The position numbers and the translations under genes are program-made. Of a stretch of DNA of 64,000 nt, positions 17,694 to 22,260 are shown piece by piece; within the stretch, counting starts at the first letter, position 1; each line of letters starts with the position of its first letter. Below the pieces are notes generated by a model. It searched no databases. It was not told the DNA's origin and worked only from the letters and a program-made list of their open reading frames with translations. The stretch is from Flavobacterium jumunjinense (GTDB taxonomy: Bacteria; Bacteroidota; Bacteroidia; Flavobacteriales; Flavobacteriaceae): the NCBI RefSeq assembly GCF_021650975.2, contig NZ_CP091285.1:310001-374000 (forward strand). The letters are read 5' to 3'.

Positions 17694-18710
17694 CTAAACT
17701 GTAGCGTATTCTAAAACTGGTTTGTAACGTCTAAATGTTTGTCCTAATAAAACTTTTGCCATATGAGTAGTAATTGCACCGTCTACTAATTTATCTAACC
17801 AATAGAATTCTCCCGCCGAATTAATCTCTAAGAAATAATGATCTTTCTCTGGTGTAACAATTATATCTATAGCTCCATAATTGATTTGATAAACATCCAT
17901 CATTTCAAGTATTTTGTTTTTAACATCTAATGGCAACTCATAAGGAACCCAATCATTAAGCAGAGTTGTTCCTTCTCTTCTCCAATCGATTTTAGCATTT
18001 GATAACTTTTGAGAATCTACGGCAAAAGCAAAAATTTCATCTCCAACAACCGTTACCCTTAACTCTACCTCTTTTTCTAACTTTTCTTGAAATTGCATTG
18101 GACAATATTGCAATGTATCTATAGATTCTAAATCTTCTTCTTTAATAACATTCGTAAAAACAACATTTTCAATTCCGTCTTTATAAATCGCAAAAGAACT
18201 TTGCATTTTTGCTATCGCTCCATTCGGATGTGCTTTTACAAATCTTTTTGCTTCTTCTGGACTGTTTGTAATACAGGTTTCTGGTATTAGCATTCCTAAA
18301 AATGAAGCAATTTTCATTTGTTCTTCTTTACTATCTAATCTTCTGTAAGAACTATACTTCCCTATTTGAAAACAATTCAAACTTTCAAGCATTCCATATA
18401 ATGTTGTACGCACTTCGCCATGAGCACTACTTAAAAATTCTCCTGATAATACAGATTTTAATCCATCTGCTAAATGATGACTCCTTCTATACCATAACGC
18501 CTCAATATCATGAAGTGCTTCTCTATGTCCTTCATAATCTAAGAAAACTTTCCATTGTTTTTCCTCATAACAAGAACTTAATGAATATTTCGTAGGATAT
18601 TCATCTACATTAAAACGAATAGGATGTCCTCCCATTTCTTTAATTTTATCTGAAATAACAGTTATGCATTCATTATCCCTGCTATGGGTTATAATCAATA
18701 CTTTTTTCAT
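17694..18710 (-). CDS. Graspetide ATP-grasp ligase (microviridin MvdC/MvdD-type)
   Basis: 338 residues. It starts KKVLIITHSRDNECITVI, as in microviridin ligases, and contains ALWYRR, LQYCPMQFQEKLEKEVELRVTV, VDSQK, the DWRRE motif and a C-terminal ATP-grasp metal site YGAIDIIV then FLEINSAGEFYWLD. It should use ATP to activate side-chain carboxylates of the precursor and close ester or amide rings with Thr, Ser or Lys. By its start and DWRRE/EFYWLD motifs it looks closer to the MvdC (amide-forming) branch, but I am not sure of that assignment. It is second ligase in a leftward operon with the precursor at 19900-20139. Confidence 0.88.
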   Translation of the reverse strand: MKKVLIITHSRDNECITVISDKIKEMGGHPIRFNVDEYPTKYSLSSCYEEKQWKVFLDYEGHREALHDIEALWYRRSHHLADGLKSVLSGEFLSSAHGEVRTTLYGMLESLNCFQIGKYSSYRRLDSKEEQMKIASFLGMLIPETCITNSPEEAKRFVKAHPNGAIAKMQSSFAIYKDGIENVVFTNVIKEEDLESIDTLQYCPMQFQEKLEKEVELRVTVVGDEIFAFAVDSQKLSNAKIDWRREGTTLLNDWVPYELPLDVKNKILEMMDVYQINYGAIDIIVTPEKDHYFLEINSAGEFYWLDKLVDGAITTHMAKVLLGQTFRRYKPVLEYATV

Positions 18711-18807
18711 ATGTTTAAATTTTATTTGTTATAACTAATCTATGTTATCGACTTATAATGGTTTACTTTCAATACACAAACTCATTGTTAAAAGTGATTT
18801 CAATAAA

Positions 18808-19800
18808 TTAAATATTATTCTTTCTATTTTTTCTTTCTACTAACTTATTTGCAATTGTTTCTCCTATAGGATATCCCAAATCGCGTTGAAGCATTCCCCA
18901 TTCTCCTTGTGGGTTTACTTCTAAAAAAACATACTGACCGTCTTTTTGCTTAATAACATCAATAGCTCCAAAAACGAGTCCCATTGTATTCATCATTTTT
19001 GTAATAGAATGGGTGATTTTTTCAGGTAATTCATAAATTGCCCAACCAACATTCCCTTCTTTTGTTGCTCTCCAATCTGTTTTTCCTGTTTCAGATAATG
19101 TTGCATTTATTTTCCCCGCATAGAATATTCCATCAATATAGATAACTCTTAATTCATATTCTTTCTCTATTTTTCTTTGAAATATCATTGGGCAGTAAGC
19201 CAAAGTAGCCTTTAATTCTTCTATTTGATCTTCTTCTACTAAGGTTGTAGGAAAAAAAGAAGCCGATCCGCTCATACTTCTAGACAATGATCCGTTTAGT
19301 TTTGCTATGAGTTCTTTTTTACAAACGTCATAAAAAAAACGCTCAACAGTTGCTCCATTATTGGTAAAAATAGTTTCTGGAATAGCTAATCCAGATTGTT
19401 TTGCTATTCTTAATTGTTCGAATTTATTCTCTCCTATACTATGATCTGTTTCAATTAGATTTATCCAATCCTTATTTTTTAAAGATTCGAAAAACATATT
19501 TCTCATAGCACTATATTCTTGAACATATATTGATCTATACGCTTTATCTAAATTTTCAGGTATCTCAATTGGCCATATTTTTCGATACCAAACTGCTTTT
19601 ATATCATCAGCTGTAAAACGAATATCACCATCTATAATTTCAAGTAGTGGTTCTCCAGCTATATTTTGATAGGAAAATGATAACTTTTCAGAAAAATTAT
19701 CGGAATTTAATCTATAAACATCTTCGCCTAATTCTTTTAATCTTTTTATTACACTATCAATTGTATAATAATCTTTACTATGGCTTATGCATAAAATCAT
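18808..19800 (-). CDS. Graspetide ATP-grasp ligase (second paralogue)
   Basis: 330 residues, paralogous to the downstream ligase. The features are MILCISHSKDYYTID, AVWYRKIWP, ATLAYCPMIFQRKIEKEYELRVIY, a DWRATKEG variant of the DWRR motif and the ATP-grasp metal site FGAIDVIKQ with FLEVNPQGEWGML. It lies next to the precursor gene with a hairpin between them. By analogy with microviridin it would make the ester (omega-ester) rings, with the other enzyme making the amide; the division of labour here is inferred. It has no transporter or protease domain. Confidence 0.87.
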   Translation of the reverse strand: MILCISHSKDYYTIDSVIKRLKELGEDVYRLNSDNFSEKLSFSYQNIAGEPLLEIIDGDIRFTADDIKAVWYRKIWPIEIPENLDKAYRSIYVQEYSAMRNMFFESLKNKDWINLIETDHSIGENKFEQLRIAKQSGLAIPETIFTNNGATVERFFYDVCKKELIAKLNGSLSRSMSGSASFFPTTLVEEDQIEELKATLAYCPMIFQRKIEKEYELRVIYIDGIFYAGKINATLSETGKTDWRATKEGNVGWAIYELPEKITHSITKMMNTMGLVFGAIDVIKQKDGQYVFLEVNPQGEWGMLQRDLGYPIGETIANKLVERKNRKNNI

Positions 19801-19865
19801 GTTTTCTATTTAAATTCAGGAAAATCTATTTTCATTTTTTTCTATAAAAAAACAATAAAAATTAA

Positions 19866-19890
19866 GGAGTAACAGTTAGACCGTTACTCC
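19866..19890 (-). terminator. Hairpin between graspetide precursor and ligase genes (attenuator)
   Basis: An 8-bp perfect stem (GGAGTAAC, 19866-19873, with GTTACTCC, 19883-19890) lies just after the precursor stop codon. A U-rich stretch follows on the - strand. Partial termination here would give more precursor than ligase mRNA, as in many RiPP operons. Confidence 0.6.
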
Positions 19891-19899
19891 CTATTATTT

Positions 19900-20139
19900 C
19901 TAGATTTCGTCTAGTGGTCCTGACTCATCATTATCTGATGGGTATTTCATAGTGTGAACATTATCTGAAATTGGATTTGTAGTATCATCATCACTATCAG
20001 AAGGGAATTTTAAAGTATGATCTCCATCCTTTAATTTTGAAGTTAGTGCTCCACCTTGTACTTCATTAGACTCTCCTTGAGTTAATTGATTTTCTAAAAA
20101 ATTTGCGAAAAAAGGTTTTTTCAATTCTTGATTTTTCAT
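19900..20139 (-). CDS. Graspetide (microviridin-type) precursor peptide with two cores
   Basis: 79 residues from the ATG at 20139; upstream frame to 20196 has no good start. The leader holds KKPFFANFLENQL (residues 7-19), close to the PFFARFLE helix that microviridin ligases bind. A GG pair is at 29-30. Two core segments follow: T42-L-K44-F-P-S47-D48-S-D50-D51 and T63-M-K65-Y-P-S68-D69-N-D71-E72, both matching TxKxPSDxxx, where Thr and Ser form esters and Lys an amide with the acidic residues. The six ring-forming acids are all Asp except E72. No other gene nearby encodes export or leader removal. Confidence 0.9.
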   Translation of the reverse strand: MKNQELKKPFFANFLENQLTQGESNEVQGGALTSKLKDGDHTLKFPSDSDDDTTNPISDNVHTMKYPSDNDESGPLDEI

Positions 20140-20353
20140 TTTTGTTGATTTTAATTTTAATGTTTTTGTTTTGTTGTATTTGCAAATAACGAACACCCGA
20201 ATTTAACAATTTTTACGGAAAAACCCCACATTAAATTGTGAAAAAATTGTTAAAAAATAAAAAACCCAGTAACCATTAGCCTTTCCAAGCTAAAAAAAAT
20301 ATTTTTAAAATATATTTTCTTAAACAAAACCATAAAAACTATTTCCATAAAAA

Positions 20354-20375
20354 AATCCCGAAAAAATTCGGGATT
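20354..20375 (-). terminator. Terminator of the cyclophilin-FKBP gene
   Basis: A 9-bp perfect stem (AATCCCGAA with TTCGGGATT) has a 4-A loop and a U-run on the - strand. It lies 40 bases after the isomerase stop codon. Confidence 0.85.
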
Positions 20376-20414
20376 CATTGTAGTATAACTTTGTATTACT
20401 ATATAGACATAGTA

Positions 20415-21347
20415 TTATTTTACGTCCATCAATTCAACATCAAAAACTAAAGTTGCATCTGGTGGAATTACTCCTCCAGCTCCTTGAGAACCATATCCTA
20501 AAAATGAAGGAATAACAAAACGTGCTTTATCTCCAACATTCAACAATGCAATACCTTCGTCCCAACCTTGAATTACTTGACCAACTCCTAATTGAAATTC
20601 GATTGGTTGTTTTCTTTTATATGATGAGTCAAAAACTTGACCATTCTCTAAAGCTCCTTGATAATGAACTGATACTTTTTTTCCTTTTTCAGCTTGTTTA
20701 CCACTTCCTTTTTGGATAATTTGGTAACGCAATCCGCTTTGTGTTTTTTGAAAACCAGCTGCTATTTTTTCCAATGCTTCTTCAGCTTCTTTCTTTTGTT
20801 CAGCTAATCTTTTCTCTCTAGATCCTTCAAAAGTTCTGAAAGCTTCGATAGCATTCCAATTTTTAGCTTCGTCTCCTACCCTAACAATTTCAACTGACTC
20901 TAAAGCATCTTCTTGAGCAACTGCATCAACAACTTCTTGCCCTTCAACTACATGTCCGAAAACTGAATGTTTCCCATCTAACCAAGGAGTTGGAACATGT
21001 GTAATAAAAAATTGTGTTCCATTTGTTCCAGGTCCTGCATTTGCCATAGATAAAACACCTGGCTTATCATGCTTTAATTCTGGGTGAAATTCATCATCAA
21101 ATTTATAACCACCATCACCTGTACCTGTACCTTGTGGACAACCACCTTGAATCATAAAATCAGGAATTACACGGTGAAATTTTAATCCGTTGTAATATGG
21201 AGTTCCCATTGATTTTACTGAATTTTCTAACTGTCCTTCAGCTAGTCCTACAAAATTACCAACAGTTCCTGGAGTCTTATCATGTGTTAGCTTAACTAAA
21301 ATACTTCCTTTAGAAGTATTAAACTTTGCGTAAATTCCGTCTTGCAT
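20415..21347 (-). CDS. Bifunctional peptidyl-prolyl isomerase: cyclophilin + FKBP fusion
   Basis: 310 residues with two catalytic domains. Residues 1-165 are a cyclophilin ([46 protein letters not shown]). Residues about 200-310 are an FKBP ([40 protein letters not shown], ending [12 protein letters not shown]). The linker is charged and helical ([16 protein letters not shown]). No signal peptide is seen, so it should act in the cytoplasm. Such fusions are known in Bacteroidetes and a few other groups. It is transcribed alone. Confidence 0.92.
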
Positions 21348-21540: not shown

Positions 21541-22260
21541 ATGGAAAAATTAAACGGAAAAAAGGCAATCATAACAGGAGGAAGTAGAGGTTTAGGAAAA
21601 GCAACTGCAATTGCTTTTGCAAAAGAAGGAATTGATGTTGCTATTACCGGAAGAAACGAGACTAAATTAATTGAAACTGTAAATGAATTAAAAGCATTAG
21701 GCGTAAATGCGACCTATGCAGTTTTCGATGTTAGCAACTATGAGGAAGTTAAAAACGGAATAAAAAAAATAATCACATCTCTTGGCTCAGTTGACATTCT
21801 AGTAAACAATGCTGGTATTGCGGCTTTTGGTTCTTTTAACGATATGGAAGTAAACCAATGGACAGAAATCATTCAAACCAATGTTATGGGAATGTATTAT
21901 GTTACAAAAGAAGTACTTCCTTTCCTGATTGAAAAAAATCAAGGAGATATTATCAATGTTTCTTCGACAGCTGGCTTAAATGGAAACCCAAATACTTCTG
22001 CTTATTCTGCGTCTAAGTTTGCTGTTATCGGAATGTCTGAATCACTAATGAAAGAAGTACGCAAAAACAATATTAGAGTTTGTACTTTAACACCAAGTAC
22101 AATTGCTTCTGATATGTCGATTGAATTAGGAATTGCAAACAAAGATTCGGTTGATAGTGTATTACAACCTGAAGATTTTGCAGAATTAATTGTTACTAGT
22201 CTTCAATTACCTAGAAGAGCAATGCTTAAAAATGCTTCACTTTGGTCTACTAATCCATAG
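21541..22260 (+). CDS. SDR oxidoreductase (3-ketoacyl-ACP reductase-like)
   Basis: 239 residues, the size of FabG. The cofactor motif TGGSRGLGKA, the NNAG motif, the catalytic Ser in NVSSTAG and the YSASK tetrad (Tyr, Lys) are all in place, so the enzyme should be active with NAD(P)H. A likely -7 element TATTTTTG lies at 21513-21520. The exact substrate is not set by the sequence; it could be a FabG-like reductase or another SDR. No fatty-acid genes are next to it, and a terminator follows at once. Confidence 0.82.
   Translation: MEKLNGKKAIITGGSRGLGKATAIAFAKEGIDVAITGRNETKLIETVNELKALGVNATYAVFDVSNYEEVKNGIKKIITSLGSVDILVNNAGIAAFGSFNDMEVNQWTEIIQTNVMGMYYVTKEVLPFLIEKNQGDIINVSSTAGLNGNPNTSAYSASKFAVIGMSESLMKEVRKNNIRVCTLTPSTIASDMSIELGIANKDSVDSVLQPEDFAELIVTSLQLPRRAMLKNASLWSTNP

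Follow-up and report, generated by a model that had tools for sequence, protein, structure and literature searches.

A Flavobacterium jumunjinense graspetide cluster of the microviridin/chryseoviridin type with two ring-plus-cage units on one precursor

The stretch of the Flavobacterium jumunjinense genome analysed here (64,000 nucleotides, referred to below as the window) carries a short gene cluster which, on the basis of its sequence, is of the microviridin/chryseoviridin graspetide type. The family is a known one, and the single precursor carries two ring-plus-cage units. By homology, it is probable that these two units mature into a single exported peptide of 49 residues, cut by a C39 peptidase, with up to eight rings, which would act as a two-headed serine-protease inhibitor. 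The genes, their motifs, the conservation of these motifs and the ligase family are observed directly, and are as follows:

19900..20139, minus strand: precursor peptide gene (79 aa), an open frame with an in-frame Met at 20139
20092..20115, minus strand: leader recognition helix PFFANFLE, residues 9-16, invariant or nearly so in 22 aligned precursors
20050..20055, minus strand: double glycine, residues 29-30, invariant or nearly so; predicted leader cleavage site
20026..20043, minus strand: putative single-ring motif of unit 1, T33-x4-D38 (TSKLKD), assigned from its position, the survey (349/489 cores) and the published motif
19987..20016, minus strand: predicted cage of unit 1, T42-LKFPSD48-S-D50-D51, with all-Asp acceptors, from the sequence
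19963..19980, minus strand: putative single-ring motif of unit 2, T54-x4-D59 (TNPISD), assigned from its position and the survey
19924..19953, minus strand: predicted cage of unit 2, T63-MKYPSD69-N-D71-E72, from the sequence
19863..19893, minus strand: terminator-like hairpin between the precursor and the first ligase gene (14-pair stem and T-rich tail; z = -4.70)
18808..19800, minus strand: ATP-grasp ligase of the MvdC/MdnB/CdnB type, predicted lactam former, 330 aa (TIGR04185, E 2.9e-111)
17694..18710, minus strand: ATP-grasp ligase of the MvdD/MdnC/CdnC type, predicted lactone former, 338 aa (TIGR04184, E 3.2e-121)
20353..20376, minus strand: terminator-like hairpin between the precursor and the peptidyl-prolyl isomerase gene that lies upstream of it

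The precursor matches the microviridin/marinostatin family far above chance (NCBIfam NF033738 at E 4.3e-21 and 75.5 bits, the cut-off being 26; Pfam PF12559 at E 4.4e-12) and is the one precursor of this kind in the genome. Among the matches listed it has 42 homologues, one of which is the window's own cluster; a PDB search with the precursor sequence gave no match. On the minus strand, transcription would run from the precursor to the MvdC-like and then the MvdD-like ligase, an order also found in close relatives. Both ligases score below the NCBIfam equivalog cut-offs (371.6 and 404.4 bits against 425 and 475), and are therefore MvdC/MvdD family members rather than strict equivalogs; PF21068 lies above its own cut-off in both. 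Residues D282, E295 and N297 (numbering of the 17694-18710 ligase), which we take to have an ATP/Mg role, are likewise kept in both enzymes. The best PDB relatives of the MvdC-like ligase are 7m4s (AMdnB) and 5ig8, and the best relative of the MvdD-like ligase, with the comparison confined to solved structures, is CdnC (7mgv; 392 bits versus 248 for MdnC, 5ig9). MdnB/MvdC is described as the lactam former (excerpt of PMC7823629), and PFFARFL, the counterpart of PFFANFLE, as the ligase-binding motif (excerpts of PMC8939145 and PMC7823629). The first-pass annotation had described a precursor with this leader, two TxKxPSD cores and two ATP-grasp ligases, and its coordinates and residues are confirmed; its assignment of a two-core, two-ligase microviridin-type cluster is likewise supported by NF033738, PF12559, the ligase profiles and the solved relatives.

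Each core is preceded by a T-x4-D motif that was absent from the earlier feature list. The acceptors given in that list, D50/D51 in core 1 and D71/E72 in core 2, are borne out by the sequence, with SDDD after PSD in core 1 and NDES in core 2. T33/D38 and T54/D59 lie at positions -9 and -4 relative to each TxKxPSD, and both units fit TxxxxDxxxTxKxPSDxD[DE], a motif described for Chryseobacterium precursors, in which three linkages are counted over the whole motif and the bonding positions are tied to experimentally determined linkages (excerpt of PMC8939145). When the free residues of the core region were shuffled, T/S plus D/E at -9/-4 arose in both units with a frequency of 0.0017. In the survey described below, T/S at -9 together with D/E at -4 was found in 349 of 489 cores among the matches listed; the full pattern was missing in the other 140 of 489, which counts against a TxxxxD ring. 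In the last cores surveyed, T/S occurs at -9 in 86% of cases, versus 4-25% at -11, -10 and -8, and D/E at -4 in 96%, versus 4-13% at -5 and -3. By chryseoviridin precedent, T33-D38 and T54-D59 may each form a single lactone.

By homology, we infer up to four rings per unit, reading the three linkages of PMC8939145 as esters and the amide as a fourth. The count in the excerpt of that source is three rather than four, which argues against the four-ring proposal, as three would correspond to the esters alone. The three water losses per core predicted in the first-pass annotation are, given the extra T-x4-D ahead of each core, probably too few. In the mechanism that we propose, the leader helix PFFANFLE would dock on both ligases; the CdnC-type ligase (17694-18710) would close the esters T33-D38, T42-D48 and S47-D50 of unit 1 and T54-D59, T63-D69 and S68-D71 of unit 2; and the CdnB-type ligase (18808-19800) would then close the amides K44-D51 and K65-E72. 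Counted in atoms, Asp in place of Glu makes a ring one atom smaller (14 versus 15 for S-D, 29 versus 30 for K-D).

In its PFFxxFL helix, its TxKxPSD cores with two acids and its adjacent MvdC/MvdD-type ligases, the cluster has the features of the microviridin type; TxxxxD directly before the cage in both units, together with a lactone ligase that is closest to CdnC among solved structures, are features of the chryseoviridin subgroup, and the GG before the core at residues 29-30 is a feature of microviridin classes II/III. The chryseoviridin system of Chryseobacterium gregarium (CdnA/CdnB/CdnC) shares the leader type, the ligase types and the TxxxxDxxxTxKxPSDxD[DE] unit (excerpt of PMC8939145), and supplies in CdnC (7mgv) the best solved relative of the 17694-18710 ligase. 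The four C. gregarium precursors examined (at L072), however, each combine several T-x4/5-D motifs with just one cage motif at the end, whereas in the window one precursor holds two units of ring plus cage. No alpha/beta hydrolase or epimerase was present among the flanking proteins scanned, a set that left out 21541-22260 and genes further out; these are flanking genes of Chryseobacterium loci rather than a definition of the type (excerpt of PMC8939145). AMdnA of Anabaena PCC 7120, a class II multi-core microviridin precursor, resembles that of the window in having several cores on one leader and one lactone ligase, but has three cores rather than two, and the excerpted account describes no TxxxxD ring (PMC5934393). 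Closer still, among the matches listed, are the Flavobacterium precursors P0002-P0006 (P0005 being from F. jejuense), which have two or three cores and 56-82% identity to the window's precursor. In P0002 and P0003 the acceptors of the two cores are all Asp, whereas in the window an Asp-Asp first core is followed by an Asp-Glu last core.

The extent to which Asp acceptors are unusual was determined by a survey that drew on 149 loci, of which 139 yielded a precursor and 10 none, together with 123 proteins. The inputs included 80 of 168 confirmed loci and 120 of 2123 proteins, and Cyanobacteria were not deliberately included. This yielded 333 distinct sequences from the leader onwards, including the window's precursor and P0001, with 489 TxKxPSD cores; 17 of the 333 precursors lacked TxKxPSD and contributed no core. 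Among these matches, the acceptor pairs were DE in 226 cores, DD in 136, ED in 104, EE in 20, DA in 2 and EG in 1. Since the contig scan behind the 80 loci looked for a pattern in which position 9 is Asp, and the protein search depends on words in common, position-9 counts from those sources lean to Asp. The count was therefore repeated on the loci found by profile HMM alone, which are free of the Asp-9 pattern and in which 62 of 92 cores come from outside Flavobacterium, nearly all from one other genus, probably Chryseobacterium. In this subset (n = 92) the pairs were DD 42, DE 41, ED 6, EE 2 and DA 1, and within Flavobacterium (n = 30) DE 14, DD 7, ED 6, EE 2 and DA 1.

Asp acceptors as an anomaly can thus be rejected (DD in 136/489 cores among the matches listed, 42/92 profile-found cores and 7/30 in the genus). 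The second ester of marinostatin likewise uses Asp. The amide acceptor is described as Glu or Asp, with microviridin E having Asp where earlier microviridins have Glu (excerpt of PMC7823629), and the published motif itself ends in PSDxD[DE]. The first-pass annotation had singled out the Asp acceptors as special and had accepted as grounds for giving up that view a survey that finds them to be common in described flavobacterial microviridins; in the present survey, Asp acceptors are common. These data indicate that, for microviridin-like cores in Flavobacterium and its order, having Asp as the sole acceptor is normal rather than exceptional. Four precursors among the matches listed have two cores with Asp as their sole acceptor. 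They include a nearly identical pair, and one, whose two-core precursor is accompanied by two ligases, comes from Roseateles subflavus (L095). Roseateles subflavus is a proteobacterium, and its cluster possibly reflects horizontal transfer.

Acceptor order depends on the position of the core. In multi-core precursors among the matches listed, the first core is ED in 83 of 136 and the last core DE or DD in 132 of 136, a pattern for which common descent may be the cause. A DD first core occurs in 6 of 136 multi-core precursors (among the matches listed, and including the window and P0001), so that the Asp-Asp first core of the window is mildly unusual. DD followed by DE was seen, among the matches listed, only in the window and in the 99%-identical cluster representative P0001. 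The nearest relatives alternate between D and E at the lactam position, with a DE first core in P0004-P0006 and a DD first core in P0002 and P0003. Core 1 offers D50, D51 and D52, and the register of its Lys bridge could therefore vary. The acceptor pair is followed by a further D in 112 of 136 DD cores versus 63 of 226 DE cores (among the matches listed), and 8 of 19 versus 18 of 73 when distinct 11-mers are counted; a Lys bridge shifted to position 11 in DD cores was considered, but relatedness may explain the D excess. Two other loci (L024 and L045) have Ala at the lactam position of the first core (PSDSDADE), making them candidates for a natural core with a shifted lactam or none.

We then asked how the ligases are distributed with respect to the acid at position 10, using whole frames from 84 unique loci after removal of repeats. 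Asp and Glu are both present at this position in 55 of the 84 loci, 53 of which have exactly two ligases; Asp alone is found in 11, all with two ligases, one of each type; Glu alone in 17, 16 of them with two ligases; and Asp plus Ala in a single locus, again with two. The three loci without two ligases comprise two short stretches (L067 and L108) and L054 (16 kb), which showed one. In an alternative count by best tblastn match, with repeats kept, the B-type ligase was found in 10 of the 11 Asp-only loci, the one at L095 being missed. The B-type ligase is thus kept where only Asp is available, although this retention is not proof that a Lys-Asp amide forms. Of two close relatives, one has Asp alone at the lactam positions and the other has Glu; identity to the window's enzymes is 72-75% for their B-type ligases and 87-88% for the C type. 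Separate ligases for Asp and Glu were considered, but 53 of the 84 unique loci hold both acids under one ligase pair. The window's mix of Asp and Glu lactam acceptors under one ligase pair, an arrangement shared with those loci, is mildly unusual; with both acids in one chain and served by one enzyme pair, the cluster offers a natural internal control for how a ligase reads acceptor length.

These counts bear on a reading in which core 1 is marinostatin-like, closing two esters but not the lactam, since the B-type ligase would find D51 too short, and core 2, with E72, forms the full cage. Marinostatin has lactones without a lactam (excerpt of PMC13039773), the published motif is credited with three linkages, DD is rare in first cores (6/136), and 3 of 489 cores, all first cores, lack an acid at position 10 (DA 2, EG 1; all among the matches listed). 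Against it, acids occupy both acceptor positions in 486 of the 489 cores (among the matches listed), both ligase types are kept in 11/11 Asp-only loci (10/11 by best tblastn match), and Asp is named beside Glu as an amide acceptor, as in microviridin E. On this balance we consider a core 1 without a lactam rather unlikely.

The preferred reading of one exported peptide rests on the double glycine. GG occurs solely at residues 29-30, and the linker between the cores, DTTNPISDNVH, contains none, which makes one linked product likelier than two. A C39 peptidase/exporter encoded elsewhere would cut after GG30 and export a single 49-residue peptide. The genome has seven C39 matches, and for three the reading frame is 734-736 aa long; none of the seven lies inside the window, and the cluster contains no C39 peptidase/exporter or other peptidase or transporter, a point against this reading. 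C39 cleavage after GG is reported for a graspetide, and the GG-cleaved microviridin classes II/III are described as "often accompanied" by a C39 exporter, which is therefore not strictly defining (excerpt of PMC13039773). GG is present in 34 of 173 surveyed core-to-core gaps among the matches listed, making cutting between cores conceivable in some relatives; in the window, the linker not only lacks GG but is partly made up of the conserved T54-D59 motif, and two separate microviridin-like peptides are an improbable outcome. The earlier suggestion of two products or one linked one is accordingly narrowed in favour of the latter.

Once exported, the peptide would present two cages with up to eight rings and act as a two-headed serine-protease inhibitor, with L43 and M64 as its specificity residues. 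These correspond to position 5 of microviridin L, the residue after Thr, at which mutants move specificity among elastase, trypsin, chymotrypsin and subtilisin, with F5L directed to elastase and F5M to subtilisin (excerpt of PMC7823629). Since specificity in that account lies mainly with the residue after Thr, it is unlikely that the protease target is dictated by the acceptor acids, and the notion that Asp rings could alter it finds no support. A more specific version, which we put forward only tentatively, is that one B-type ligase closes both the Lys-Asp and the Lys-Glu amide, giving a single 49-residue, eight-ring product whose two heads (L43 and M64) would bind two different serine proteases at once.

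The family is sporadic, being present in 12 of 398 genomes of the genus and in 41 of 395 genomes of the order, the latter in 2 of 108 genera (the window's own genome being included in both counts). A cluster acquired long ago and often lost since, or one that has entered the same site several times, would both fit. While such sporadic occurrence could also suggest a silent cluster or one in decay, none of the three frames is interrupted, the motifs are intact and the order of precursor, B-type and C-type ligase is kept in close relatives, so that this is very improbable.

The first-pass annotation had described a tight operon. The gaps, at 99 and 97 bp, are indeed short, but the first, after the precursor, holds a strong terminator-like hairpin. 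A strong hairpin was found in the precursor-ligase gap in 6 of 6 loci folded (the window and five chosen relatives, the latter with z from -4.01 to -5.78); the gap sequences of the five relatives group into a small number of types, and one of them (L156) has a weaker run of T behind the stem. The gap between the window's two ligases holds nothing comparable (z = 0.14). The hairpin is probably an attenuator that would end most transcripts after the precursor, yielding more substrate than enzyme. A scan for sigma-70-type promoters found 17 sites versus 16.6 in shuffles, and thus no excess. For expression work, it is helpful to know that the ring-plus-cage unit is repeated and that a hairpin recurs behind the precursor gene.

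Upstream, the cyclophilin/FKBP gene at 20415-21347 was rejected as a tailoring gene, given that it has a match in 61 of 61 sampled genomes of the genus (full-length with at least 73% identity in 58) and is separated from the precursor by a hairpin. This isomerase gene probably marks the site of the cluster without being part of the kit; it lies near the cluster in 10 of 14 compared loci (the window and 13 chosen Flavobacterium loci). In 16 of 29 cluster-free genomes examined, a weakly GLPGLI-like or redoxin gene lies within 1.5 kb after the isomerase gene, and in the window genes of these two kinds are found beyond the cluster.

Outside the window, the genome also encodes an ATP-grasp protein of the MvdD pre-grasp family (L016:880-1845, minus strand; G000:C1:736082-736426; 30.1 bits against a cut-off of 27). 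It lies less than 4 kb from C39 matches at G000:C1:732262 and 739429, the latter weak, and together these genes may make up another graspetide-like system of this bacterium.
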